Assembly: GCA_902793285.1 (NCBI GenBank) | Contig: CADBCV010000004.1 | Coordinates: 62,001-126,000, forward strand | DNA length: 64,000 nt | DNA from: Oscillospiraceae bacterium | Lineage (GTDB): Bacteria > Bacillota > Clostridia > Oscillospirales > Oscillospiraceae | Direction: 5' to 3' | Shown: piece by piece, positions 3,780-24,434 of the stretch | Layout: each line of letters begins with the position of its first letter | How positions within the stretch are numbered: position 1 is the first letter of the stretch | Program-made: the position numbers and the translations under genes | Notes under the pieces: generated by a model | The model's input: only the letters and a program-made list of their open reading frames with translations | Databases searched by the model: none | Told to the model about the DNA's origin: nothing

Positions 3780-4979
3780 TCAGCCGTTGCCGCCGGGGTT
3801 GCCGGAAGCCTTGCTGTAGTACACAAAGCCCTGGTGCTCGACCACGTTGCCGCCCAGCATCACGTCGCCCAGGATGGTGTGCATGCGCTCGATGGCCTTG
3901 GCGGACTCATCGACGCGGATCTCGTAGCCGCTGAACAGGCCCAGCATGTAGTTCAGCGGGTTGCCGTAGATAAGATCGCCGGCAGTCAGATCGGGTACGA
4001 TCACATAGGGGATCTGCACGCCGCCGTCGGCGATCACGCCGCGATTGCCGTTGCCCTGCTTGGAGATGTTGAAAAGTCTCAGCTTTTCATTGGTGCCTCT
4101 GAGCTGGCCGAAAGCCTTCAGGTCGGCCTTGCGCAGCTGCAGCACTGCCTCGCCGGTGAACTCCGTGTCGGGGCCGAGGGCGAAGTACAGCTCATCCAGC
4201 GTGTTCTCGTCGATGGCGGTGTAGGTGTCGGTGACGATGATGCTGGCGCCTGCCTTGTTGACGGCAGTCTTGATGCCATAGGCGGTCTTGGTGCCGTCCA
4301 CGGCGCCGTTGACGATGAGGCCGACGGCCTTGCGGCGCAGGGCGCGCAGCGCCATCTGCTGCACCTTCTCGTAGTAGCGCGCGGGGCTGAGCTTCTCAAT
4401 GTTGCGGTCGACAAAGCTCGTGGTGGTGATCTCCATCGGCACGATCTGCGCGATACCGAAGGTGGGATCGGTGCTGAGTGTTCTGGCGGTGCCGGACTTG
4501 GCGACAGGGTCGGCTACGGTACCGTCAAACTCGGAAATCACATAGGGCTCTTCCCAGCCGCTCAGGCCGGCCATGTCCTCCACACGCACCATGTCCAGCA
4601 GGCTGGAGATGGCAGGCTGGTTGTCGTGGATCTCGGTGCCGGTACCGGTGGGCTGCACCAGCGTGCCGGTGATGGTCACGGCGTTGCGCAGGGCACGGAA
4701 AACCTCGGTGTTGGTCAGGGTGATGGCCTTACCCCTTGCCAGCGCGGCGCCGCGCTCATTGGCGATGTCGGTCGCCTCGGCGGCGCTGGGCTGAGAGGTG
4801 AGCACCTGCAGCTCCTGGGCCGCGATCAGATCATTGACCTGGTTGATCTCGGTGAGGATGTTGGCCGCCTTCTCCATCTGGGACTTGTACTCCTCCTGCT
4901 TGCCGGCGTTCAGCGCCGCCTCGGCGGCGTCCAGGGCGGCCTTGCGGTCGGCCGCCAGCGCGATGAGTTTTCTTTTCAT
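3780..4979 (-). CDS. Major capsid protein, HK97 fold
   Basis: The protein has 399 residues and builds the icosahedral shell. Residues 1-65 are a charged coiled-coil of the delta-domain type, expected to scaffold assembly and then be removed by the phage protease. Residues about 90-390 show the HK97-family pattern: EVFRALRNAVTITGTL near the start of the mature domain, then WEEPYVISEF, MEITTTSFVDRNIEKL (spine helix), ADGGVQIPYVIVPDL and YEIRVDESAKAIERMHTILG (P domain/C-terminus). The gene is preceded by the portal block and followed by the gp6-like connector. It has its own RBS (GGAGGTAACCC) just before the ATG. Confidence 0.95.
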   Translation of the reverse strand: MKRKLIALAADRKAALDAAEAALNAGKQEEYKSQMEKAANILTEINQVNDLIAAQELQVLTSQPSAAEATDIANERGAALARGKAITLTNTEVFRALRNAVTITGTLVQPTGTGTEIHDNQPAISSLLDMVRVEDMAGLSGWEEPYVISEFDGTVADPVAKSGTARTLSTDPTFGIAQIVPMEITTTSFVDRNIEKLSPARYYEKVQQMALRALRRKAVGLIVNGAVDGTKTAYGIKTAVNKAGASIIVTDTYTAIDENTLDELYFALGPDTEFTGEAVLQLRKADLKAFGQLRGTNEKLRLFNISKQGNGNRGVIADGGVQIPYVIVPDLTAGDLIYGNPLNYMLGLFSGYEIRVDESAKAIERMHTILGDVMLGGNVVEHQGFVYYSKASGNPGGNG

Positions 4980-5009
4980 TGGGTTACCTCCGTAAAAAAG
5001 ATATTTATA

Positions 5010-11112: not shown

Positions 11113-12327
11113 TCATATCTGCACCGCTTTCCTGCCGGTCAGGCTCTCCCAGCGGCGCACGATCACTGCCGCGTAGTGCCCGTCCAGCTCCATACAGTAC
11201 GCCCGGCGGCCCAGCTGCTCACAGGCGACGATTGTCGTGCCGGATCCGGCAAACAGGTCAAGCACCCGGTCGCCCTGCACAGTTCCGTTTCCGATTTGGT
11301 AGGCAAAGAGCTTGACCGGTTTCATCGTCGGGTGCTCCTTGCTCCTCAAGGGCTTGTCGAACTCCAGCACCGTGCTCTGCTTGCGGTCAGAGTGCCATTC
11401 GTGCGCGGCACCCGGCGTCCAGCCATAGGCGCAGGGCTCGGAGATCTTCTCGCCCGTCAGGCACGGCTCATGCTGCCAGTGGTAGTCCTGGCGGCTGATC
11501 ACCGCCTGGTTCTTCACCCACACCAGGCACTGCCGAACCGGCAGGCCGACGGCGCGCAGCGCCTGGCGAAACTCAAGCGCGGGCTCCCCGTCGGGGTGCC
11601 AGATGTTGAAAACCGCGCCGGGGCGCAGCGCGTCCTTCGCGTTTACAAAGGCGGCCTTGAGAAAGTCCAGCAGCTGCTCGGCCTGCAGGTCGTCGTTCTG
11701 GATTTTCCCGGCCTGCGCCTCATAGGCCACGCCATAGGGCGGATCCGTCAGCAGCAGGTCGGCAAGCTCACCGCCCATGAGCCGCTGCACGTCGTCGCGC
11801 TTGGTGGCGTCGCCCACCAGCAGCCGGTGGTCGCCCAGCTGCCAAAGGCTGCCGGCGGGGAGCTCCTCGCCCTCCTGCGGCTCCGGGTCGAAGTCGTCCT
11901 CCTGCGGCTCACGCGGCAGATCCAGCTTGATGTCCGCCGCCGAAAAGCCCGTGAGCGTCACGTTGTAGCCCGCGTCGCGCAGCCGGATCAGCTCCGCGCT
12001 CACCATGGCCTTGTCCCACTTGGCATGCTCGGCAAGCCGGTTGTCGGCCAGAATGTACGCCCGGCGCTGCTCGTCGTTCAGATGCTCGGCCAGAACACAG
12101 GGCAGCGCCTCCATCCCGGCCAGCTTCGCCGCCTCCAGGCGGCCGTGCCCACAAAGGACACCGCCGTCGGCGCGGATCAGCAGCGGCCTCAGAAAGCCAA
12201 ATTCCAGGATGCTCTGGCGCAGCTCCTCGATCTGCTCCGGGTCGTGGATCCGGGCGTTATTTTCGTAGGGCTTCAGATCAGCGATCCGCCGCACCTCGAT
12301 CTCGGTTGTCATGTAGATCTCGCTCAT
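11113..12327 (-). CDS. ParB-nuclease domain / DNA methyltransferase fusion
   Basis: The N-terminal 100 residues form a ParB/Srx-like domain (LKPYENNARIHDPEQIEELRQSI, GGVLCGHGRLEAAKLAG). Residues about 160-404 form an amino-methyltransferase: DPPYGV at 195-200 is the catalytic motif IV and DLFAGSGTTIVA near 363 is the AdoMet-binding motif I. Motif IV precedes motif I, the order of the beta class. It would methylate adenine N6 or cytosine N4 and could protect phage DNA from host restriction. Such fusions are common next to terminase genes. No cognate restriction gene is seen. Confidence 0.92.
   Translation of the reverse strand: MSEIYMTTEIEVRRIADLKPYENNARIHDPEQIEELRQSILEFGFLRPLLIRADGGVLCGHGRLEAAKLAGMEALPCVLAEHLNDEQRRAYILADNRLAEHAKWDKAMVSAELIRLRDAGYNVTLTGFSAADIKLDLPREPQEDDFDPEPQEGEELPAGSLWQLGDHRLLVGDATKRDDVQRLMGGELADLLLTDPPYGVAYEAQAGKIQNDDLQAEQLLDFLKAAFVNAKDALRPGAVFNIWHPDGEPALEFRQALRAVGLPVRQCLVWVKNQAVISRQDYHWQHEPCLTGEKISEPCAYGWTPGAAHEWHSDRKQSTVLEFDKPLRSKEHPTMKPVKLFAYQIGNGTVQGDRVLDLFAGSGTTIVACEQLGRRAYCMELDGHYAAVIVRRWESLTGRKAVQI
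12145..12161. promoter_or_regulatory. Dispersed 17-bp palindrome, site 3 (one half-site variant)
   Basis: GTGCCC-ACAAA-GGACAC, inside the methyltransferase gene. It differs from the perfect palindrome at one base of the right half. Site 5 carries the same variant half-site in the opposite orientation, which supports both being real members. Confidence 0.45.
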
Positions 12328-13940: not shown

Positions 13941-14780
13941 TCAGGCCGAGAGCCGACGCCTGCGCCTGGCGCGGGGCGGCGCAGGATAGCGGCTGCCGTC
14001 GTAGCAGTACTTGAGCACATGCCAGCTGGCGTACTGCGTGGACTCGCGCCGATCATAAAGCACCTCGCTGCCCTCCGGCGCGGTGAGCTGGTAGTCGTCG
14101 TCGACGGTGAGCGTCTCGATCTCCGGTCGCTTAGCGTTGCGGGTGCAGCTCCAGCCGTGCAGGCCGGGCTTGGAGTCGTACTCCTGGCACTCGCGCATCT
14201 CCTTGGTCATGTAGATGGCGAGGGCCTTGTACAGGTTGTCGGGCTCGTCGCCTGCCTCGGCAGAGACTTCTTCCATCCACTTTATGCGGTGCAGCCGACC
14301 GGGCTTCTGGAGCTTGTCGGCCTCGATCTCGGTGCCGTAGATCCAGCACCGGCGGATCATGTCCAGATCCCGCCCGGTGTTGTCCAGGACGAAGTGAAAG
14401 TGCCAGCGCCCGGACTCTGAGCTGAGGATCTCCGGCGCCCAGAACACGACCGGCTCCGGAAGGCCCTCGGCCTTGCGTTCGATGCGCAGGAGCTTGAGAA
14501 AATACTTGAAGCGCAGCTGCGCCTCCTGGCGGCTCTTGGGCATGTGCTTGTCGTCGAAGGTGGCGGCGCAGACCATGGCGCTGCCGGCGCGCGGGTAATT
14601 GACTGCCAGCATGAGCTCCAGCTTTTGGTAGGAGTAGATACGGTTCATCCGGCGCTGGGCCTCGCTGCTGGCCTTCTGCTTGGCGGCGCGCACCTTGGGG
14701 CTCTCGCGTCCGGTGCGCCGGTTGTAGAGTGCCGCCACCTGCAGGCCGCCGGCGTCTATGAGCTTGAGTATTTTGGCCAA
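13941..14780 (-). CDS. HUH-type rolling-circle Rep protein
   Basis: The 279-residue protein has the two hallmarks of HUH endonucleases. The metal site is WHFHFV at residues 126-131 (His127, His129). A Tyr/Lys helix NLYKALAIYMTKEM follows with Tyr190 and Lys193 at the right spacing for nicking. The C-terminus is very basic (PPRARRRRRLSA). Such proteins nick one strand at a replication origin and are usual in plasmids and ssDNA phages; related genes are also found in Firmicute prophages. The gene coexists with a DnaB helicase and a separate initiator, so its job here is open. Confidence 0.82.
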   Translation of the reverse strand: MAKILKLIDAGGLQVAALYNRRTGRESPKVRAAKQKASSEAQRRMNRIYSYQKLELMLAVNYPRAGSAMVCAATFDDKHMPKSRQEAQLRFKYFLKLLRIERKAEGLPEPVVFWAPEILSSESGRWHFHFVLDNTGRDLDMIRRCWIYGTEIEADKLQKPGRLHRIKWMEEVSAEAGDEPDNLYKALAIYMTKEMRECQEYDSKPGLHGWSCTRNAKRPEIETLTVDDDYQLTAPEGSEVLYDRRESTQYASWHVLKYCYDGSRYPAPPRARRRRRLSA

Positions 14781-16342: not shown

Positions 16343-17665
16343 TCACGCCTCCTTCTCCGGCAGCGGCCACCAGCCGACCACCTTGCCCACGTCGGCCACC
16401 GGGCGGCCATATGCAATCCACTCGCCGTTTATATAATCGCAGCTTTGCTCTGTCGGTCTGTTCAAACCCAGATCCAGCCTGCACAGATAGCGCCCGTCCC
16501 GCGGCGGCGTTCCGGTCTGCCACGTGGGCTTGGTGCCCACTGCGGGCACGGCCGCCCTGGGCCTCGCGTTCCGCCTGGCCTTCTCGTCCACCATCGCCTG
16601 CCGGCACCGGTTGATAGCGATGGCTGCCACCGCGTCGTAGACCTCCGTCCAGGTGCGGGTGATCTTCTGGCCCACGCCGATGGCCATGCCTTTGTTGCTG
16701 CCGTCCCAGGTGGATGGGCTGCCGTTCCAGTTTCCGGTGGAGCGCAGGTCGAGCCGCATGGAGTCGATGTTTTCCTTGCGGTTAAGACCGGCGCCGGCGG
16801 CAAAGCTCATGAGCAGCACGTCGTCGGTGATCTTCTGCATAAGGTGCCAGAACTCCCGATCCTCCTTCTCGCGCTCGTCCAGGTAGCGCTTGAGGCCGTC
16901 GATGGCCTTGTTGGGATCCGGCTCCGGCGGCTTGGTCACCAGCGGCTGCTTGATCTGGCCGAGCACCTTCTCGGCGCTGTCGCCGGTCAGACCGCGCACG
17001 GCGGGGCCGAGGCGGGCGGCAAGGTCGTGCTGCACCGCGGCGTCCTCCTGACTGAGCCTGTACGCCACCGTCTCGCCCAGGCCGCCGCCGTCAAACTCCT
17101 GCAGCAGCTCCGGCACCAGGTTCGCCCGGATGGCGTGCAGCCGTCCCACGCGGGACTTGCTCGTCTGGAGGATGGCCGCCACGTGGTCGCGCGTCCTGCC
17201 GGGGAACTTCACGCCCTGCTCCTCCAGCTTGCCGAGGATCTCCGTCACCTTCTCGGACTGGATGGAGATCTCCGACGCGGTCAGGATGCGCGTGGCGCTG
17301 TTGCCGTAGATCAGCTTCAGCTCCTGCCACTCCTTGGACACGTCGCCGCGCTCCCGGATGCAGGGCACGCCGCGCTCGAACATTGTGCTGCCGCCGTCGC
17401 GGATCAGCAGAATGGCCGCCCGGCGCCGGTGGCCGGACACGACCGTGACGTGGCCATGCTCTCCGCTGCGCACGCGCAGCGGCTGCTGCAGGCCCACCAT
17501 CTCGATGCTGGCCGCAAGCTCCGAAACATCGCCGACGCTGTAAAAGTTCCGGTCGTCCGGGTCGATCTTGTCAATTGGGATGTACTCGATCTGCTCAAGG
17601 CCGGTGTCCACTGCGGGCACGCCCGCCTTTTTCAGCTCGTCGGCGAGGGTGAAGGGCTTACTCAT
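16343..17665 (-). CDS. parB: ParB-like partition protein
   Basis: The 440-residue protein has an N-terminal ParB domain: YIPIDKIDPDDRNFYSV, SIEMVGLQQPLRVR, and VVSGHRRRAAILLI (the nucleotide-binding GxxRxxA-type motif). A HTH-like middle segment follows (GRTRDHVAAILQTSKSRVGRLHAI). The C-terminal third is unlike chromosomal ParB and ends in a segment rich in Trp and Pro. Its start overlaps the end of parA by 8 bp. Two of the six prophage palindromes lie inside this gene (16533 and 17604), the place where plasmid par systems often keep binding sites. Confidence 0.88.
   Translation of the reverse strand: MSKPFTLADELKKAGVPAVDTGLEQIEYIPIDKIDPDDRNFYSVGDVSELAASIEMVGLQQPLRVRSGEHGHVTVVSGHRRRAAILLIRDGGSTMFERGVPCIRERGDVSKEWQELKLIYGNSATRILTASEISIQSEKVTEILGKLEEQGVKFPGRTRDHVAAILQTSKSRVGRLHAIRANLVPELLQEFDGGGLGETVAYRLSQEDAAVQHDLAARLGPAVRGLTGDSAEKVLGQIKQPLVTKPPEPDPNKAIDGLKRYLDEREKEDREFWHLMQKITDDVLLMSFAAGAGLNRKENIDSMRLDLRSTGNWNGSPSTWDGSNKGMAIGVGQKITRTWTEVYDAVAAIAINRCRQAMVDEKARRNARPRAAVPAVGTKPTWQTGTPPRDGRYLCRLDLGLNRPTEQSCDYINGEWIAYGRPVADVGKVVGWWPLPEKEA
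16533..16549. promoter_or_regulatory. Dispersed 17-bp palindrome, site 4
   Basis: GTGCCC-ACTGC-GGGCAC, perfect, inside the 3' third of parB. Confidence 0.55.
17604..17620. promoter_or_regulatory. Dispersed 17-bp palindrome, site 5 (one half-site variant)
   Basis: GTGTCC-ACTGC-GGGCAC, inside the first 60 bp of parB. The spacer is identical to site 4. Confidence 0.5.
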
Positions 17666-18428
17666 CGTCGCGCACCTCCCTCAGCAGCTGCTCATAATCC
17701 TGGGCGGCGCGGGACCGAGGCGCGTACTCGTAGAGGGGCAGCCTGGTGTAGCTGCTCTCGCCCACGCACACGCTGCTGTGGACAACGGCCTCGAACACAT
17801 CCAGCCCGTCGGCCTTGAGCTGGTCGATGACCTGGCGGCTGAGGCGGGATCTGTCCGCCATGGTAACCAGGACCCGGCAGCGGGGCGCGATGTGGTAGGC
17901 GCCGAGGCTCCTGACCTGCTGGATCATCTCCAGGGCACCGGCGCGGCTGAACGCATCCGCCCGCGTGGGGAGGATCATCTCGTCGCAGCACACCAGCGCT
18001 GCCACGCTTGCCGCCGTGAACGACGGCGGACAGTCAATGATGACGTAGTCATAGGCGTCGTCATCCCTGACGATCTTGAGGAAATCATACAGGCGCTTCT
18101 CAGATGCGGCGCCGTCGGCGTGCGGATCATTGAGGACCGCCGCCAGATCCAGCTTCAAAAGCCGCATGTCGGCACACAGCATGTCGAGGTTCTCCCAGGC
18201 GGTGTGCGTGACCGACTCGGTCCACACCGGCTCACAGTCGCCTGTGAGCACGTCCGTCAGGGTGGGCCCTTCGTAGTCGGGGCAGTAAAAGTCGCTGCTG
18301 TTGTGCTGCGCATCCGCGTCGATGAGCAGCACACGCTCACCGTCCCGCGCCAGCAGAGCGGAGAGGTTGATGGCGGTCGTGGATTTGCCGACGCCGCCCT
18401 TGTGGTTCGCTAAAGCTATAACTTTCAT
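17658..18428 (-). CDS. parA: ParA-family partition ATPase
   Basis: I use the ATG at 18428, giving 256 residues and starting MKVIALANHKGGVGKSTTA. The deviant Walker A is KGGVGKST at residues 10-17 with the signature first Lys. LLIDADAQ (A') and YVIIDCPPSF (Walker B) follow. It is the short, plasmid/chromosome-type ParA without an N-terminal HTH. With ParB it would move or anchor phage DNA. The leader just before the ATG (AGACCACGAAGAC after AAAGG) is complementary to the 5' end of the predicted RNA at 20792-20861, suggesting translational control. Confidence 0.92.
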   Translation of the reverse strand: MKVIALANHKGGVGKSTTAINLSALLARDGERVLLIDADAQHNSSDFYCPDYEGPTLTDVLTGDCEPVWTESVTHTAWENLDMLCADMRLLKLDLAAVLNDPHADGAASEKRLYDFLKIVRDDDAYDYVIIDCPPSFTAASVAALVCCDEMILPTRADAFSRAGALEMIQQVRSLGAYHIAPRCRVLVTMADRSRLSRQVIDQLKADGLDVFEAVVHSSVCVGESSYTRLPLYEYAPRSRAAQDYEQLLREVRDDE

Positions 18429-18448
18429 GTCTTCGTGGTCTCCTTTTG

Positions 18449-18646
18449 TCAGTATTTGAAGCACTCGTAGCGGGTGCCCTGCGGGGTCTCATACGCGGCC
18501 CGGTACCAGTGGCGCGGCTCGTTGATCTGCACCACCTTGCCGGCCACCTCCACGTTCAGCTCACCGCCGAAGCCGGTGGTGCTGTCGGCGTAGGCTGATG
18601 GTTTGAACTTTACCTGGTCGCCGATGTCATAGGGGCAGGGATTCAA
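18449..18646 (-). CDS. Small phage protein, SH3/KOW-like
   Basis: The 65-residue protein starts at the TTG at 18646, preceded by AAGGAGGTGACAATCCC. It reads MNPCPYDIGDQVKFKPSAYA and ends TPQGTRYECFKY. The compact run of beta strands beginning with GDQVKFKP is like small SH3-type barrels. It overlaps the end of the helicase gene by 20 bp and sits just upstream of parA. Function unknown. Confidence 0.7.
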   Translation of the reverse strand: MNPCPYDIGDQVKFKPSAYADSTTGFGGELNVEVAGKVVQINEPRHWYRAAYETPQGTRYECFKY

Positions 18647-19949
18647 AGGGATTGTCACCTCCTTCGTCGTCGTCCAGGTCGAACAGGGGCGCGCCCTGGC
18701 CCGGCATCTGGGCGGGCTCCTTGCGCTTGGCATAAGAGAACGTCATGTGCTGCGGGTCGAAGGACAGCAGCAGGCTCTTGTTGGTGGCGCCGTCCTTGTC
18801 CTTGCCGATCTTGAGCTTGCGCGCGCCGGGGAAGGTCTTGTCCTTCATCATGAGCAGGATGATTTCGGCGTCGTTCTTGATCTGGCCGCTCTCGCGCAGA
18901 TCCTGGATTGTGATCTCGCCGGACTCCGGCGGCGTCACCTGACTGAGCGCCACGATGGTCACGCCCAGACGGTTGGCCATGCGGTGCAGCTCCATGGAGA
19001 TCTCCGTCACCGTCTCAAAGCGGCTGCTTGCCTTGTGCCGGATGATCTGCAGGTAGTCAATGAACACTACGTCGGCGTTGTGCATGATGATCCGGTTCTG
19101 GATCTGCGGCAGCGTCTCCGCCCGGCGGATCACGCGCAGCGGCACCTTGTTGGCCTTCATGCCGGTGTCGCCGGCGCGCAGGTAGTCGTCGCTGGACAGC
19201 GCCTTTTTCTTGGAGTGCAGCATCGGGATGGCGGCCACCTGCTTCTCGGCCATGAGGCGGTCTTCGAGCTTTTCCCTCGGCGTTTCCAGCGAGAAGAAAA
19301 GGGTGCGCTTGCCATGCTGCGCCATGTGGAAAGCAAACTGCAAAGCCAAAGCGGTCTTGCCGGCAGAGCTGTCGGCTGCCAGCACGCAGAAATCACCGGG
19401 GGACACACACAGCGTCTCGTCCAGCTGCGGGATGCCCCATGTCAGGTAGTTCGGGGGCGCCGGATCGTTCATGCGATCCAGGTAGCTGCCCACCATCTCC
19501 TCCCAGCTGACGTCCTCGATGGTGTCGGTGTCGCGCAGGAGCTGGCCCATCTTCTCGTAGGCGTCCAGGGCGTCCTCCATGCTCTTGGCCCAAGATAGCG
19601 CGCCTGCCGCCGACCGAATCTGATAAAGCCGGGCCTCGTCGCGCAGGATGTGCAGGTACTCGTCCACGTCCATGTGAGGCGGTACCATCTCCATGCACGC
19701 AGCTAAGGTCTCCTCGTGCCCATCCAAGCCGGTGGCGTGCAGTATAGTCACCGGGTCGATCGGCTTGCCCTCGATCCATAAGCTATGCGCGGCCTCAAAG
19801 AAGTGTTTTAGAGAGGGCTCACCAAAATAGCTGGGCATGGCGCCATGAAAAATCTTCCCGGCTAACTCGTCGGGCCATAGCACCAGAGCGCCGAGTATGC
19901 ACATCTGGGCCGGTTTCCAGGCATCGCCTGAGAGCTCCTTTACAGCCAT
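18627..19949 (-). CDS. DnaB-like replicative helicase
   Basis: The 440-residue protein has an N-terminal helical domain (about 1-150) and a RecA-like ATPase. Walker A is AADSSAGKTALA near 190-202 and Walker B is DVVFIDYLQII, followed by the family pattern GVTIVALSQVTP and LRESGQIKNDAEIILLM. The acidic C-terminus (FDLDDDEGGDNPFESLPL) is phage-specific. It should unwind DNA at the phage origin and is loaded by the initiator encoded just upstream, whose stop it overlaps by 10 bp. Confidence 0.93.
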   Translation of the reverse strand: MAVKELSGDAWKPAQMCILGALVLWPDELAGKIFHGAMPSYFGEPSLKHFFEAAHSLWIEGKPIDPVTILHATGLDGHEETLAACMEMVPPHMDVDEYLHILRDEARLYQIRSAAGALSWAKSMEDALDAYEKMGQLLRDTDTIEDVSWEEMVGSYLDRMNDPAPPNYLTWGIPQLDETLCVSPGDFCVLAADSSAGKTALALQFAFHMAQHGKRTLFFSLETPREKLEDRLMAEKQVAAIPMLHSKKKALSSDDYLRAGDTGMKANKVPLRVIRRAETLPQIQNRIIMHNADVVFIDYLQIIRHKASSRFETVTEISMELHRMANRLGVTIVALSQVTPPESGEITIQDLRESGQIKNDAEIILLMMKDKTFPGARKLKIGKDKDGATNKSLLLSFDPQHMTFSYAKRKEPAQMPGQGAPLFDLDDDEGGDNPFESLPL

Positions 19950-20746
19950 ATCTCCGCCTCCTCACCTGGGGCCTGCGCCGCCGGGGCGGGGGAGAAGCCC
20001 TCATCGCCGGCCTCCAGCGGGAACAGGCCGCGCCAGCTCCTGTCTGTGGCCTTGTGCAGCATCCCGATCTTGTACTCCCTGCTGCCCTTGGAGTGCTGAT
20101 CCAGCGTCGAGCAGCAGCGCGTCACGGTGTTCACGGTGGCCACGGCCCGGCGCATCCTGCGCCGCATGTCGGCGTAGTCCATCCATGCCGAGTACAGGCC
20201 CTCGTCCTCGCGGCAGTAGTCGGTGATCGCGTCCCACACATCGCGCGGCATCCACGGAGGCGGCGTGTATTTGTTCTTTAGTCCTTTAGTTGTATAGTTA
20301 TTTAGTTGTGGCGGATTTTCGGGCAACGGTTTTCTGGGCAACGGAATCCTGGGCGACGGTGGCGCACCGTTGCCCGGAATCCTGGGCGACGGTGGAGGCG
20401 CGCAAGGCTCCTCCGGCGCGGGGGCCGTGTCCTCGTCCGGCGGATCCTCCGCTTCTCGCGGCTGCTCATACAGGGTGTAATCATAGCCGGAAAAGCGCCC
20501 GCCCTCGCGGGACTGATCCCGGACGATGTAGCCCGCCTCCTCCAGCTCCTGCAGCACCTTGCGCACGGCCTCGCGGCCCTCCTTGCAGATCGCTGCAAGC
20601 CCGGCCACGGTGTAGTCCCAGTCGTCCGGCAGGCTCAACATCTTGCTCATGAGCCCCATGGCGCGCAGGCTTAACCGGTTGTCGCGCAGATGGTAGTTGC
20701 TCATGGTGGTGTAGTTCTCGTTGTGCTGTACACGTATAACGCCCAT
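19940..20746 (-). CDS. Phage replication initiator / helix-turn-helix protein
   Basis: The 268-residue protein has an N-terminal winged-helix-type domain (residues 1-85: MGVIRVQHNENYTTMSNYHL, LRAMGLMSKMLSLPDDWDYT and VRKVLQELEEAGYI). A Pro/Glu-rich linker of about 70 residues follows, then a C-terminal helical domain (WDAITDYCREDEGLYSAWMD). This layout is that of phage replisome organisers and lambda O-type initiators. The DNA for the linker holds iteron-like repeats beside an AT-rich stretch, as lambda O does for its origin. The dnaB-like gene is immediately downstream. Confidence 0.85.
   Translation of the reverse strand: MGVIRVQHNENYTTMSNYHLRDNRLSLRAMGLMSKMLSLPDDWDYTVAGLAAICKEGREAVRKVLQELEEAGYIVRDQSREGGRFSGYDYTLYEQPREAEDPPDEDTAPAPEEPCAPPPSPRIPGNGAPPSPRIPLPRKPLPENPPQLNNYTTKGLKNKYTPPPWMPRDVWDAITDYCREDEGLYSAWMDYADMRRRMRRAVATVNTVTRCCSTLDQHSKGSREYKIGMLHKATDRSWRGLFPLEAGDEGFSPAPAAQAPGEEAEIWL
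20270..20400. repeat. Iteron-like repeats and AT-rich stretch inside the initiator gene (candidate ori)
   Basis: A perfect 20-bp direct repeat (GGAATCCTGGGCGACGGTGG) occurs at 20343-20362 and 20376-20395. Two shorter related units (GGGCAACGG at 20321 and 20336) and an inverted CCGTTGCCC lie beside it. Adjacent is an AT-rich 40-bp run with repeated TTAGT/TAGTT (20275-20310). The combination resembles an origin with iterons and an unwinding element. Confidence 0.55.
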
Positions 20747-20756
20747 AATTTTCTCC

Positions 20757-20786
20757 TTGTCAAAAGGTGCAAGGCCGTGCTATAAT
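20757..20786 (+). promoter_or_regulatory. Strong plus-strand promoter for a small RNA
   Basis: TTGTCA (20757-20762), 18-bp spacer, TGCTATAAT with an extended -10 (TATAAT at 20781-20786). It points rightward, against all flanking early genes. Confidence 0.75.
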
Positions 20787-20791
20787 AGCAG

Positions 20792-20861
20792 CGTCTTCGT
20801 GGTCTGGGCCTTGCGCCCATGGTCACAGCCCTGCCGGGGTCGCGCCCGGCGGGGCTTTTTT
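20792..20861 (+). ncRNA. Predicted 70-nt phage small RNA
   Basis: The unit has a strong promoter upstream and a rho-independent terminator at its end, with no ORF. The 5' end carries GTCTTCGTGGTCT (20793-20805), identical to the plus strand at 18429-18441. The RNA is therefore perfectly complementary over 13 nt to the parA mRNA just before its start codon. It also pairs at 12 of 13 positions (one G-U) with the leader of the Acb2-like gene (24422-24434). A 5-bp hairpin (TGGGC-CTTGC-GCCCA) follows the seed, then the terminator stem. This is the architecture of trans-acting regulatory RNAs. Existence and targets are predictions. Confidence 0.6.
20828..20861 (+). terminator. Rho-independent terminator of the small RNA
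   Basis: An 11-bp GC-rich stem (GCCCTGCCGGG with CCCGGCGGGGC, one G-U), 6-base loop, then TTTTTT. The T-tract is present only in the plus direction. Confidence 0.8.
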
Positions 20862-21135
20862 ATACCACCTTCATGCCGGGGATATAGCGCAGCTGCTGCG
20901 GCTTGTAGTTCTTGCTCCCCTTGGGCCTGCCCGGTCGGGCGGGCCTTTTTTTCGTCCCTGCGCACGGTACCCGGCAGCAGCGGTCGAGGTAGCGCTCCAG
21001 CTCCTCTTCGTCGAAGCGCACCAGCCGCCCGATCCGCGTGCACTCCAGCTCACCGGCGGCCACGATCCGGTCGAGGGTGGCGCGGGAGATCTGCAGCCTC
21101 TCACAGACCTCGGCTTTATTCAAGAGCCTGTCCAT
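20860..21135 (-). CDS. Helix-turn-helix protein, excisionase/MerR-like
   Basis: The 91-residue protein starts at the ATG at 21135. It has a MerR/excisionase-type winged helix: LLNKAEVCERLQISRATLDR, VAAGELECTRIGRLVRFDEE and ELERYLDRC. A basic C-terminal tail (TKKRPARPGRPKGSKNY) follows. It could be the recombination directionality factor for the integrase or an early regulator. It overlaps the upstream XRE gene by 20 bp. Confidence 0.8.
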   Translation of the reverse strand: MDRLLNKAEVCERLQISRATLDRIVAAGELECTRIGRLVRFDEEELERYLDRCCRVPCAGTKKRPARPGRPKGSKNYKPQQLRYIPGMKVV

Positions 21136-21343
21136 CCTCGCCCTCCTTGTACAGATCTTCGATCCCGCATTGCAGCAGCGCGGCAATGGCGGGCAGGTAC
21201 CCGGCCGACGGCATGGTCGCGCCGCTCTCCCACTGGTTCCACGCCTGCCTGGTGACGTCGAGTTCGGCGGCAAGCGATGTCGCGGTCAGTCCCAGCACCC
21301 GCCGTCGCGTGCGTATGCCGGGCATGCTTGTGTAGATCTTCAT
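21116..21343 (-). CDS. XRE-family regulator (small)
   Basis: The 75-residue protein starts at the ATG at 21343. It is little more than a Cro/C1-type HTH: MPGIRTRRRVLGLTATSLAA, ELDVTRQAWNQWESGATMPS and LPAIAALLQCGIEDLY. The recognition helix is around VTRQAWNQWE. As a small HTH in the early operon facing the lysogenic repressor, it may be Cro-like. Confidence 0.82.
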   Translation of the reverse strand: MKIYTSMPGIRTRRRVLGLTATSLAAELDVTRQAWNQWESGATMPSAGYLPAIAALLQCGIEDLYKEGEDGQALE

Positions 21344-21357
21344 GGTCTGGCCCTCCC

Positions 21358-21828
21358 TCAGTCGCGCCACGTCGTGGCGACAGCGCCCTGGGCAAAGCGC
21401 AGCTGCGTGGCCGCCTTGACGATGTCGCGCAGCTCCTCGCTGATCTCGCACCAGCGCTCCGTCTGTTCGCCCTCGTCAACCTGGCCGTTGGAGCTGATCC
21501 AGATCAGATCGTCGGCTCTGTGCTTCTGCTCAAACTGCCGCATGCAGTACAGCAGCTGCGCCACGGCCTGTGCCAGCGGCAGCTGCGCGGCCTCCGGGAT
21601 GAGTCCGGCGGCGAGTGCAGAGCTTGCGCGCAGGTGTTCCAGTGCCAGCGTCGGGGCGGGGTAGGCGTCGCACATGAGCGCCACCTTGTCGTCGGGCGGG
21701 GTGTAGATCCCGGCCTCCCAGTTGGCCAAAGTGCGCACGGCCACGCCCAGCAGCTCCGCTGCCTTTTCCTGCGTCAAACCGGCAGCCTTGCGGTGCCGGG
21801 CGTACATCGTTCTGTAATCGTCGTTCAT
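21358..21828 (-). CDS. XRE-family regulator with C-terminal helical domain
   Basis: I use the ATG at 21828 (156 residues). The HTH is HRKAAGLTQEKAAELLGVAV and RTLANWEAGIYTPPDDKVAL. The remaining 90 residues are helical with no known motif. A TGATATC-AA-GATATCA palindrome lies 28 bp upstream of its start and may be its own operator. It is the first of three small DNA-binding proteins in a row. Confidence 0.82.
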   Translation of the reverse strand: MNDDYRTMYARHRKAAGLTQEKAAELLGVAVRTLANWEAGIYTPPDDKVALMCDAYPAPTLALEHLRASSALAAGLIPEAAQLPLAQAVAQLLYCMRQFEQKHRADDLIWISSNGQVDEGEQTERWCEISEELRDIVKAATQLRFAQGAVATTWRD

Positions 21829-21855
21829 GGTAAAAATGCTCCCTCCGGGGTAAAA

Positions 21856-21871
21856 TGATATCAAGATATCA
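21856..21871. promoter_or_regulatory. Operator-like palindrome upstream of XRE gene
   Basis: TGATATC-AA-GATATCA, perfect 7-bp half-sites with a 2-bp spacer, between the XRE start (21828) and the stop of the upstream gene (21869). It is AT-rich in a GC-rich context. Confidence 0.55.
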
Positions 21872-22456
21872 ATTCTCAGGCGGCGCCGCTGCAAGGGTCT
21901 CCAGTACGCCGTCGAGCACGCGGTACACCGCGATGGGTACCGGCTTGGCATCAACGATCAAACGGATCTGTTCCTCTGTGATGCAGCCGTTCCCGCCCTT
22001 GATGATCTGCGGCGTCGAGACGCCGTTCTGCCGCATCTGCAGCAGCCTGTCCCGGATGCGCCGCTTCTCGGCGGCAGCCTGGGCCGCCGGGCCGCTGACC
22101 TTAATCTCTACGGGCTCGAAGCCGCTAAAGGCATCCGGGGGGGGCAAAGGATCCCCTCCGCCGGTGTCCGCGTCGGTCACCTCGGCCGGCGCCGACGGCG
22201 TGTTCATCGTGCGCGGGGGATCGGGATAGACCGACGGCAAGTGAAGCGCCTGCAGGAGTGTTTCTTCGTTCCGCTGCGCCTCAAGCCGTTCCTCGGCCCT
22301 GGCCGCTTCGTAGGCATCGCGCAGCTGGTAGTACATGTCCAGGTAATAGGCGAGTTTTCTTTCCGGGATGTTGGTTACCGTCGCCAGCAGGTTCACACAG
22401 CTCTGCACTGCTGCTTCCGGTGTGCCGATCTCCGGCGCCTGTTTTTGTTCGTCTAT
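21869..22456 (-). CDS. Phage protein of unknown function, apparent AUA start
   Basis: The coding part ends with RIRDRLLQMRQNGVSTPQII, GGNGCITEEQIRLIVDAKPV and AVYRVLDGVLETL, which looks like a helical DNA-binding or interaction domain. The N-terminal 80 residues contain AAVQSCVNLLATVTNIPERK and YYLDMYYQLRDAYEAA. The only strong ribosome-binding site is GGAGGTGA at 22462-22469, and five bases after it is ATA (22456), not ATG or GTG. The frame stays open upstream to 22657, but that part crosses a 14-bp palindrome and has poor composition. I infer an AUA start and 195 residues. Confidence 0.65.
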   Translation of the reverse strand: MDEQKQAPEIGTPEAAVQSCVNLLATVTNIPERKLAYYLDMYYQLRDAYEAARAEERLEAQRNEETLLQALHLPSVYPDPPRTMNTPSAPAEVTDADTGGGDPLPPPDAFSGFEPVEIKVSGPAAQAAAEKRRIRDRLLQMRQNGVSTPQIIKGGNGCITEEQIRLIVDAKPVPIAVYRVLDGVLETLAAAPPEN

Positions 22457-22483
22457 GGTGATCACCTCCAACTTGTAAGGGAT

Positions 22484-22516
22484 CCTGAGCTGTTCGGAAA
22501 TGCCGAACAGCTCAGG
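22484..22516. promoter_or_regulatory. 14-bp perfect inverted repeat
   Basis: CCTGAGCTGTTCGG and its exact complement CCGAACAGCTCAGG, separated by AAATG. It lies 28 bp upstream of the apparent AUA start. No T-tract follows on either strand, so an operator or an mRNA leader hairpin is more likely than a terminator. Confidence 0.6.
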
Positions 22517-22962
22517 GGGCAGGGATAACGAGCCGTCAGCCCGCTGCCGCCGTGCATGGGGAATACAGCAAAACCCATGCAGGACGGTGCTCCATTCTTC
22601 TGCCTGGAGCATGGACGGATAAAGGAGGCGCAGCTCAAGCCCGCGCGGGTAAGGCATGGAGAGACAAGCGCGGGGCGGTGCCGGGAGCTGCGCTGGTGTG
22701 GGCAGGGGTGTGGCTTGTCGGCGGTGGTTCCCTTGGTGTCAGCCCGGAAGCTGCCGCCTGACCGCGTTTCCGCGTCTCACCGAACCGAAGCCCAGCAACG
22801 CGGGTTCGGTTCGGAAAGGAAGAAGGGCACGGCGGCTGTGGAGTTTTCCCGGCTCTTACGCAAACCGGGGAAACGGAACAAAGCCGGGCTCTTCTGACGC
22901 AGGCGTGGGGAGCAGTGCTGGCAGATCGTGCGAGGGCCTGCCGCCATGAATCCCCTGCCCAC
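22517..22962. other. Early-region stretch without a confident gene
   Basis: No frame on either strand has a convincing start, RBS and protein-like composition. A 56-residue minus frame (22777-22947, starting MAAGPRTICQHC) is possible but weak. A perfect 10-bp inverted repeat (CCGAACCGAA at 22780 with TTCGGTTCGG at 22805) is present. The segment may hold leader or regulatory RNA. Confidence 0.5.
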
Positions 22963-23029
22963 TGGTGCGGCGTGCAGGAGTCGGACCTGCGCGCGGGGTC
23001 GCCTGATCCCCGCGCCCACCGTGCGCCGC
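22963..23029 (-). ncRNA. tRNA-like structure lacking a D-arm
   Basis: On the minus strand a 67-nt segment folds like a minimal tRNA. GCGGCGC pairs with ACGCCGC (six of seven pairs) as acceptor, followed by A and an encoded CCA. The T-arm is perfect (GCAGG-TCCGACT-CCTGC, one change from the TTCGACT loop). The middle is one hairpin with an 8-bp stem (GCGCGGGG with CCCCGCGC) and a 9-base loop ATCAGGCGA. Only 7 bases remain for a D-arm. It lies between early genes, after a small GGGCGGC hairpin. It may be a degenerate tRNA, a processing signal or a tRNA mimic. Confidence 0.4.
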
Positions 23030-24012: not shown

Positions 24013-24408
24013 TCACTTGTTCATTGTGCCGAGAACACCGCGTTCCGCTCTGTCCTCTTTCCTCTTGTTGAGCCACAGGAGGGCTTCTTCTACATGCGTA
24101 AGGGCGATAGCGTTCTCCCGGCAGGCATAATCCCCGCCCTGAAAAGCGGCGAGCCTGTCCCGGACGATTTCAAGCAGATCCTCGTCAAGTGCGCCGTGTA
24201 CAGCCTCCGGGTCATTGCGCGGGCCTTTCTGGAATACGATTCTCTGCGCAGAGGCGTAGCCGTTCGGCTTGTTGATGCGGATGGTGTACTCATGGTAACC
24301 ACCGCCGGGGCCTTTCTCGTTGATGCGGATTACGGTGTTGAGCTTGTTGGTCTTCTGGATCGTGGAAAGTTCCACAAGCAGCGGGCTTGTTCTTTTTGTA
24401 AGTTCCAT
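24013..24408 (-). CDS. Acb2/Tad1-like domain protein (candidate anti-CBASS / anti-Thoeris sponge)
   Basis: I use the ATG at 24408, seven bases after AAGGAG, giving 131 residues. The C-terminal 60 residues ([49 protein letters not shown]) match the helical-hairpin pattern of Acb2/Tad1-type phage proteins, which bind and sequester cyclic nucleotide signals of host defence. The N-terminal part is a small beta domain ([20 protein letters not shown]) ending in [10 protein letters not shown]. It is the first gene of the early operon, fitting a need for immediate expression. Assignment is from pattern memory; the ligand-binding function is inference. Confidence 0.65.
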
Positions 24409-24421
24409 GGTCATTCTCCTT

Positions 24422-24434
24422 GTCTTTGTGATCT
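24422..24434 (-). promoter_or_regulatory. Leader sequence pairing with the predicted small RNA
   Basis: On the minus-strand mRNA AGATCACAAAGAC stands directly before the AAGGAG of the Acb2-like gene. It pairs with the 5' end of the RNA at 20792 with one mismatch and one G-U pair. The parA leader has the perfect version. Confidence 0.4.

Follow-up and report, generated by a model that had tools for sequence, protein, structure and literature searches.

A candidate family of phage antisense RNAs whose variable 5′ ends match the translation start of their own parA genes

Introduction

Does a 13-nucleotide (nt) sequence shared between the predicted 5′ end of a small phage RNA and the translation start of a partition gene reflect base pairing, a common DNA operator or coincidence? 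The question is raised by a prophage in a 64,000-nt stretch of DNA from an Oscillospiraceae bacterium (GenBank assembly GCA_902793285.1, contig CADBCV010000004.1, positions 62,001 to 126,000; hereafter the window, numbered from its first letter). An initial annotation of this stretch proposed that a short plus-strand RNA controls the translation of ParA in trans. We compared the predicted unit with its counterparts in related phages, which are cited by our own G and L handles. Its location (antisense, mostly beside a replication-initiator gene) and usually its shape are constant, while its 5′ sequence changes. On the strength of this comparison, we consider with considerable confidence that the unit encodes a phage-borne, trans-acting antisense RNA of about 70 nt that would block ribosomes on early genes. 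The predicted 5′-terminal 11–15 nt are complementary to the element's own parA start, and often also to the start of a gene for a small Cro/CII-like helix-turn-helix (HTH) regulator (xre), and the complementarity appears to be kept while the sequence itself turns over. The original proposal thus draws support from comparison and was too narrow, parA being one of at least two recurrent targets.

Results

The predicted RNA unit and its match to parA

The 13-mer GTCTTCGTGGTCT occurs at 20793–20805, where it opens the predicted RNA, and again at 18429–18441. The latter copy occupies the whole spacer between the Shine–Dalgarno (SD) sequence AAAAGGAG of parA (18440–18447) and its ATG (18426–18428, minus strand) plus the last two SD bases, which bears out the annotated claim that the 5′ 13 nt of the RNA are perfectly complementary to parA mRNA between SD and AUG. 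We call the 13-mer in the RNA the seed. The 5′ end at 20793 was placed from the position of the −10 box. The promoter consists of TTGTCA (20757–20762) and TATAAT (20781–20786) with TG one base ahead of the latter, its −35 element shares two bases with the complement of the rep SD sequence (20753–20758), and a comparable arrangement is present in related phages. A plus-strand promoter and a strong terminator bracketing about 70 nt had been annotated here, in agreement with the coordinates, the 11 of 12 consensus positions and the 12-pair stem (Table 1).

The 70-nt RNA has a predicted folding energy of −41.5 kcal/mol (z −4.0), equalled by none of 200 shuffles. Among 24 folded units, the window's included, 19 leave 5–7 free nt ahead of the hairpin, the exceptions being G023 with 4 nt, G138 with 10, L303 with 0, L415 with 1 and L401 with 11; in most matched units the rest of the seed forms the 5′ arm of the first hairpin. 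In the units read, the complementary segment begins 6–7 nt past the −10 box, or 9 nt past it in L437, at the expected transcription start. Alignment with MAFFT and RNAalifold detected two-sided changes at 5 of 11 terminator stem pairs with 8 sequences and at 10 of 11 with 19; this consensus recovered the terminator alone, and hairpin 1 was judged from single folds. The terminator loop GGTCGCGC, kept in seven of eight aligned units despite a varying stem, may have a role of its own. At the gathering score, Rfam returned no family at the window unit or at its counterparts in 12 related loci, the four matches in these loci lying elsewhere; the best sub-threshold match in the window, NsiR1 (27.5 bits against a threshold of 39), was judged a chance match to a GC hairpin. 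A megablast search against phage records gave no match.

Seed matches with at most two mismatches number five in the window, all on the plus strand, against an expectation of 1.2, and none of 100 shuffles reached five. The exact 13-mer occurs three times in the 2.36-Mb assembly, the third copy lying on another contig (L003), and the reversed-pattern control does not occur. On a cost scale in which a G-U pair counts as half a mismatch, the start of the regulator gene (21336–21348) is the only further window site at cost ≤1 besides the unit and parA. This match and a weaker one at 24422–24434 had been overlooked in the initial annotation. Pairing energies of the first 16 nt of the RNA with 342 candidate start regions in the window placed the regulator first (−26.4 kcal/mol) and parA second (−25.0 kcal/mol). 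Seed complements also exceeded those of permuted seeds, with 3 versus 0.29 in the window, 5 versus 0.15 in G140 and 6 versus 0.03 in G013 (RNA locus counted). Duplication of a larger block was considered as the source of the shared 13-mer and rejected: the shared stretch is merely 10–15 nt long, with the exception of a 24-nt block in G013.

Relatives carrying the same seed

Elements with the window's seed were sought by DNA similarity, by the Rep protein and by scanning 102 genomes of the genus for the exact 13-mer and viral contigs for 13-mer patterns. Units were recognized by eye, from promoter and terminator, in G140, G141, G013, G059, G101/G137 and G115; the remaining fetched 13-mer matches lacked a promoter–terminator unit. 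Apart from those of the window and G140, the units of this seed group (group I) were found through the 13-mer or similar-DNA searches. G137 is nearly identical to G101 and was left out of the counts.

Five same-seed relatives have parA on the contig, and all five show the seed complement at its start: exact in G140 and G013, with one mismatch in G059 and G101, and as a bulged match in G115. ParA identity to the window protein is 74% in G140 and 37% in G059; the G013 contig holds only the first 20 ParA residues, which differ from the window's. The parA of G129 (74% identical) has GGACCACGAAGAC ahead of its ATG on a contig that ends upstream of the gene. Loss of the pairing in close relatives that keep both loci would have spoken against the annotated RNA, and the opposite was seen, G140 and G013 keeping the 13-mer at both. 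Sites at cost ≤1 besides the unit, parA counted, number four in G140, three in G141, three in G059 and five in G013, all on the operon strand. The G013 block, which contains an inverted repeat, lies ahead of both the regulator start and the parA start (L188 1935–1958 and about 4968–4991), with a partial copy near 255, and perhaps shows how seed-bearing start regions spread.

These data bear on an alternative in which the shared motif is a DNA operator: a phage repressor would bind the same ~13-bp sequence at the RNA promoter, parA and xre, and motifs would differ jointly between phages because repressors differ. Site identity is all that is observed, and identity equals complementarity here; moreover, the unit's copy sits at the predicted transcription start, and immunity repressors with genome-scattered sites are known from the stoperators of mycobacteriophages. 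We nevertheless regard this explanation as distinctly improbable. The motif keeps its distance from the −10 box, is non-palindromic and, where it meets start codons, follows the strand of the gene. The parA site of the window lies inside a gene run, 7 nt past the preceding stop codon and with no promoter-like site nearby, which fits an mRNA target and not an operator. An operator would likewise not call for terminator pairing that is kept through two-sided changes. Lastly, each element's own RNA outperforms the window RNA at parA in G101 (−24.6 versus −18.9 kcal/mol) and G115 (−23.4 versus −16.5 kcal/mol) because pairing there runs past the 13-mer into the RNA.

Different seeds at the same place

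Units, including ones with different 5′ sequences, were found upstream of Rep homologs, at 7 of 25 Rep loci of the genus (by eye: the window, G059, G005, G049, G138 and two in G018), at 1 of 29 further loci fetched from the family (by script: G230) and at 6 of 79 viral loci (by script: G140 again, L270, L271, L303, L305 and L309). The seeds read GUUCUCGUGAUAG in G005 and L271, GUUCUCGUGAUGG in G230, GUGCUUGUGAUUCC in G049, GUCUUCAUGGUCU in L270 and GGUUUUCAUGCACG in L303. When the window, G059 and G140 are left out, seven Rep-found elements have parA on the contig and six of them (G005, G049, G230, L270, L271 and L303) match their own parA start, the seventh, L309, being the exception; G005 and G049 were recognized by eye after their parA starts had been seen, the other five by script. 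The match spans 15 nt in G049, 12 in G005 and G230, and 13 in L270, L271 and L303, including two G-U pairs in each of the latter two. G023, found by a scan for the complement, combines the seed GUCUUCAUGGUCU with the parA start AGACCAUGAAGAC, a G-C to A-U change relative to the window.

In a 14 × 14 pairing matrix of elements with both loci on one contig, own pairs averaged −23.5 kcal/mol and pairs between seed groups −12.8, and 13 of the 14 elements paired with their own parA at −23.4 kcal/mol or more strongly. Across 13 elements, at least two standard pair types occur at 12 of 13 paired positions; parA is within the top three start regions by energy in 13 elements. The conservation with covariation that the initial annotation had named as a check was thus observed: relatives with other seeds still pair with their own parA, L309 excepted.

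The relationship was also examined from the ParA side. A ParA alignment served to retrieve viral ParA loci (the best 80 of at least 537); upstream sequence of 2.2 kb or more was available for 67, and promoter-like sites occurred there in 64 of these. At each locus, antisense promoters 0.8–4.3 kb upstream were taken, and the predicted 5′ 13-mers beginning 5, 6 or 7 nt past the −10 box were compared with the locus's own parA start. At cost ≤1, 11 of the 64 loci match their own unit, as against 0.39% of 768 swapped pairs; at cost ≤1.5, the figures are 14 of 64 and 1.04%. The 11 matches represent about 8 independent ones, since L366 is the G140 contig and L417/L418 and L415/L420/L437 are near-duplicate sets; L379 is the L309 contig. 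This swapped-pair test and the Rep-side set are the main tests that were not selected by match. A ParA search of the genome contigs yielded distant ParAs (28–34% identity), which were not used further.

L367, L368 and L369 share the window's seed. The new seed types are GUUCUCAUCGCU (L392), AAGAUGUUUUCGC (L415 and L420, with a variant in L437), GUCCUCGUGGUU (L413) and GUUCUCAUGUGG (L417/L418), joined at cost 1.5 by GUUCUCGUGGAUUC (L370) and GUUUUCAUAUCGC (L401), to make about 11 seed types in total. In L415, L420 and L437, parA starts with TTG and is still matched, the seed being of different composition, AAGATGTTTTYGC. The unit lies 2.3–3.3 kb upstream of parA in the 12 closely examined elements, and parA is the best-ranked start region in eight of them and second in L367. 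In 8 of the 12 a long gene begins directly after the unit, and the five of these genes that were tested belong to replication-initiation families, as does that in G013; in sum, the unit's neighbor is of such a family in the window and the six relatives tested. A 12 × 12 matrix with one element per seed type plus L309 gave an own-pair sum below all of 200,000 random assignments, a descriptive result, given that groups 6–11 were chosen because they match and that the L309 start is a few bases off there. The own pair was the best of its column in 10 of 12 cases and the best of its row in 10 of 12; for instance, the G049 RNA scored −13.5 kcal/mol on the window leader, versus −26.7 for the window's own RNA there.

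Chance, that is, two 13-mers that happen to match where there is no regulatory RNA, could be defended on the grounds that one coincidence was picked among many possible ones and that promoter-like sites are no more frequent than in shuffled DNA, the RNA promoter being the sole such site in the 6 kb of 17000–23000 and shuffles averaging 0.8. That the match recurs at the same pair of sites in phages whose sequences differ makes this account hardly credible. The annotated judgment that a chance match is unlikely holds for the rarity of the 13-mer in the assembly as well as for this recurrence; in view of the related phages, we consider chance a very unlikely source of the predicted pairing.

Three known RNA motifs were noted close to units: a Type II hammerhead ribozyme about 1 kb from the unit in L270 (794–859, plus strand; RF02276, 44.2 bits), and, a few kb from the units of G059 and G230, respectively, the Rfam FuFi-1 RNA (L187 2028–2264, minus strand) and 6A RNA (L266 6662–6712, minus strand). 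We know of no function for the latter two.

A second candidate target and the probable direction of the effect

The small HTH regulators of these phages are 75–95 aa long and belong to PHROG regulator families, including the CII-like phrog_4836. A site at the regulator start is present in the window, G140, G059, G101, G115, G023, G230, L271, L368 and L370; in G013 it lies in codons 2–6, as judged by eye. The regulator is within the top four start regions in eight elements. Its sites track the seed group: RNAs of group III pair with their own group's regulators at −20.9 to −24.7 kcal/mol versus −8 to −15 with those of other groups (the G013 regulator, whose start was placed two bases off, was disregarded), and RNA, parA and regulator therefore change together. 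Further sites were found in the first codons of rep in G141 and G013, at the start of an excisionase-like gene in L367, and upstream of the SD of other genes in the window (24422, weak), G140 (4954), G141 (2958), G013 and G115.

Some of these last sites (window 24422, G140 4954 and G141 2958) lie upstream of the SD and not over it, as would suit an activating RNA that opens an inhibitory mRNA structure or stabilizes the mRNA. The recurrent parA and xre sites, on the other hand, lie between SD and AUG or across AUG. A duplex in these places should exclude the 30S subunit, as in antisense repression, and we find activation improbable.

Exceptions and possible control in cis

Several observations weigh against a trans-acting RNA directed at parA. 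The share of Rep loci with a detectable unit is low (7/25, 1/29 and 6/79), and 50 of the 64 viral ParA loci show no match at cost 1.5. L309 carries unit and parA on one contig without pairing (−7.3 kcal/mol), and L305 has no convincing target. The two units of G018 share the seed GTTCTCACGCGAA (L226 17640–17706 and L227 2402–2468), with no target at cost ≤1 in about 20 kb around each and no parA seen there. In G138 merely 10 nt pair with parA, which is on another contig and ranks fourth of 159 start regions; parA ranks fourth in L392, sixth in L370 and seventh in L427. No matching unit was found elsewhere in the draft genomes for the parA sites of G052 and G129, whose parA contigs end short of the expected place. 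The RNAs of groups I and II pair about equally with each other's parA, down to −30.2 kcal/mol in the 14 × 14 matrix and at −27.7 versus −26.7 for the own pair in the 12 × 12 matrix, which leaves specificity between some seed groups weak. Separately, the parA genes of G123, G099, G026, G126, G021 and G028 showed no start-region repeat readable as a unit at the expected place.

L309, with a unit and no parA match, and G018, with no target found, would be natural if the RNA controlled only the rep leader in cis, like a plasmid control RNA or λ OOP, and if the parA and xre matches were secondary or without effect; the unit is indeed antisense to the leader of the replication initiator. Full complementarity in cis, however, would not tie a 5′ segment to two distant genes, and both the swapped-pair test and the matrix show this tie; besides, a further seed-like site is found within the first codons of rep itself in G141 and G013. 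Exclusive control in cis is therefore, in our estimate, unlikely, and a trans-acting antisense RNA remains the explanation that we prefer.

Surroundings of the unit

The window carries a prophage for which terminase, portal and head protease were found. A minus-strand gene run encodes small HTH regulators, an excisionase-like protein, the replication initiator, DnaB helicase, ParA and ParB, and the integrase gene is on the plus strand. The RNA unit sits between the excisionase-like gene and rep, divergent from rep and antisense to its 5′ leader (Table 1).

Three other minus-strand genes are of separate interest. The gene at 24013–24408, downstream of the weaker site, matches phrog_2428 (E 1e-31) and weakly the Acb2/Tad1 hairpin domain PF24729 (E 1.5e-5, under the curated cut-off), and is possibly an anti-defense gene. 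The protein at 11113–12327 unites, in a single chain, matches to a DNA methyltransferase and to a ParB-like N-terminal part (phrog_498 and phrog_620) and is present besides the parA-adjacent ParB. That at 13941–14780 is a second replication-initiation PHROG match (phrog_3584, E 3e-35), distant from rep and dnaB.

Table 1. Predicted RNA unit, its candidate target sites and associated genes in the window
Feature	Position	Strand	Description
RNA promoter	20757..20786	+	TTGTCA, 18-nt spacer, extended −10 TATAAT; 11/12 consensus positions
Predicted ~70-nt RNA	20793..20862	+	6-nt free 5′ end, hairpin 1, intrinsic terminator
Seed, predicted 5′ target-pairing segment	20793..20805	+	GUCUUCGUGGUCU; complement of the parA start region
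Hairpin 1	20799..20826	+	second half of the seed is its 5′ arm (single folds)
Intrinsic terminator stem	20827..20856	+	12 pairs, then T-run to ~20862
Candidate parA mRNA target site	18429..18441	-	between Shine–Dalgarno and AUG; 13/13 complementary
Candidate regulator target site	21336..21348	-	spans the start codon (ATG 21341–21343); 13/13 pairs including two G-U
Possible weaker target	24422..24434	-	just upstream of the SD of gene 24013–24408; 12/13 pairs including one G-U; weak alone
Replication-initiator-like gene (rep)	19940..20746	-	phrog_428 / phrog_4707 replication initiation protein, E about 1e-17
DnaB-like helicase	18627..19949	-	phrog_19, E 3e-61; same gene run
parA, recurrent target gene	17658..18428	-	phrog_164 ParA-like, E 4e-57; Pfam AAA_31
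ParB-like protein	16343..17665	-	phrog_4715, E 2e-30
Small Cro/CII-like HTH regulator (xre), recurrent second target	21116..21343	-	phrog_4836 CII-like regulator, E 2.3e-9; HTH_3

Discussion

In the mechanism that we propose, the free 5′ end of about 6 nt would contact the mRNA first, and pairing would then extend into the 5′ arm of hairpin 1. The resulting duplex over the spacer or the AUG would exclude the ribosome, leaving parA and the regulator untranslated. A read-through rep leader would be complementary to the RNA along its entire length, and action on rep in cis, of the kind exerted by λ OOP, may therefore come in addition. The early replication, partition and regulator genes would thereby be kept silent in the lysogen, or capped after induction; keeping early genes off is the likely purpose, and ParA produced by an integrated prophage might do harm.

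A further and tentative idea, which we consider doubtful at present, is that RNA-based groups of immunity or incompatibility are defined by the seed. With 5′ seeds free to evolve and co-evolving with the starts of their own parA and regulator, a resident RNA would silence the replication, partition and switch genes of incoming phages that share its seed and spare those of phages with another. The two equal seeds in G018 weigh mildly against this idea. If it held, immunity groups of this kind might be predictable from sequence.

What would be new here is a family of phage antisense RNAs with variable seeds, whose joint putative targets are a Cro/CII-like gene and a partition gene. Its members are recognizable from sequence and comprise about 11 seed types, every one of which fits the parA that it accompanies; the partition gene would be the main target. 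If correct, this reading would describe an RNA switch linking replication, partition and the lysis–lysogeny regulator in temperate phages, and it would make natural matched and mismatched RNA–target pairs available for studies of mechanism without design. Our literature search, with most subscription journals outside its coverage, recognized no phage RNA acting on parA, and phage antisense RNAs are treated as single cases in the accessible part of a review (PMC12197685).

Several known systems share features with the predicted RNA. Mycobacteriophages RedRock, Alma and LadyBird, which are of the non-RepA kind, have a noncoding RNA beside parABS in reverse orientation to parA (PMC7157519). Unlike the unit studied here, it lies directly upstream of parA, in a region required for replication of the extrachromosomal prophage, and the available portion of that source describes no pairing with the parA start (PMC7157519). 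The window prophage also differs from these extrachromosomal prophages in having an integrase. The sgm-sRNA of SGI1 (PMC9299015, accessible part) was considered as an RNA of a mobile element and set aside.

As in trans-encoded base-pairing small RNAs (sRNAs), short pairing with distant start regions is conserved in relatives. Many, not all, trans-encoded sRNAs depend on Hfq, and the host assembly contains an Hfq gene. VpdS of phage VP882 is likewise a phage-encoded sRNA that acts on phage mRNAs; it differs in its binding to Hfq and in affecting mRNAs and sRNAs of the host as well, and no link to parA appears in the accessible part of the source (PMC12197685). The targets found here, ParA and an HTH regulator, are not the small toxic membrane peptides of type I toxin–antitoxin systems.

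The closest likenesses are to three RNAs. The c4 RNA of phages P1 and P7 is an antisense RNA of temperate phages that blocks translation. It recognizes the vicinity of a phage gene's ribosome-binding site by sequence-specific pairing and is the basis of heteroimmunity among related phages (PMC12197685, accessible part). Its target is ant, and its complementary sequences probably lie in loops (PMC12197685), whereas the window RNA would pair mostly by its 5′ end. The recurrent targets here are parA and the small HTH regulator gene and not the ribosome-binding site of ant, and an E-value search at the unit gave 17 matches with no c4 model among them; we take c4 to be among the Rfam models.

λ OOP adjoins the replication gene O, and the present unit is similarly an antisense unit beside a replication gene with its own promoter and terminator. 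OOP, too, is a small RNA with its own promoter and terminator, opposed to the early genes and acting on the CII regulator (accessible parts of PMC5869508 and PMC12197685). OOP overlaps the 3′ end of cII in cis; in the window, about 250 nt separate the RNA from the end of the regulator gene (21116), and a short 5′ segment matches both the CII-like gene and parA at the start codon. Plasmid replication-control antisense RNAs are encoded opposite the mRNA that they control and are fully complementary to the rep leader; the present unit lies antisense to the stretch ahead of rep and might act on a leader transcript there. RNAII of plasmid pMV158, a short antisense RNA made up of an unpaired 5′ tail, a hairpin and a U-rich end, requires the tail for mRNA binding, pairs into the stem and inhibits translation (PMC4485353, accessible part), which fits binding from a free end into a stem; repB is the only target named in that text, whereas the predicted trans targets here co-vary with the seed. 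While departing at some point from each single definition, the predicted RNA would resemble λ OOP in position, P1/P7 c4 in action and pMV158 RNAII in shape.
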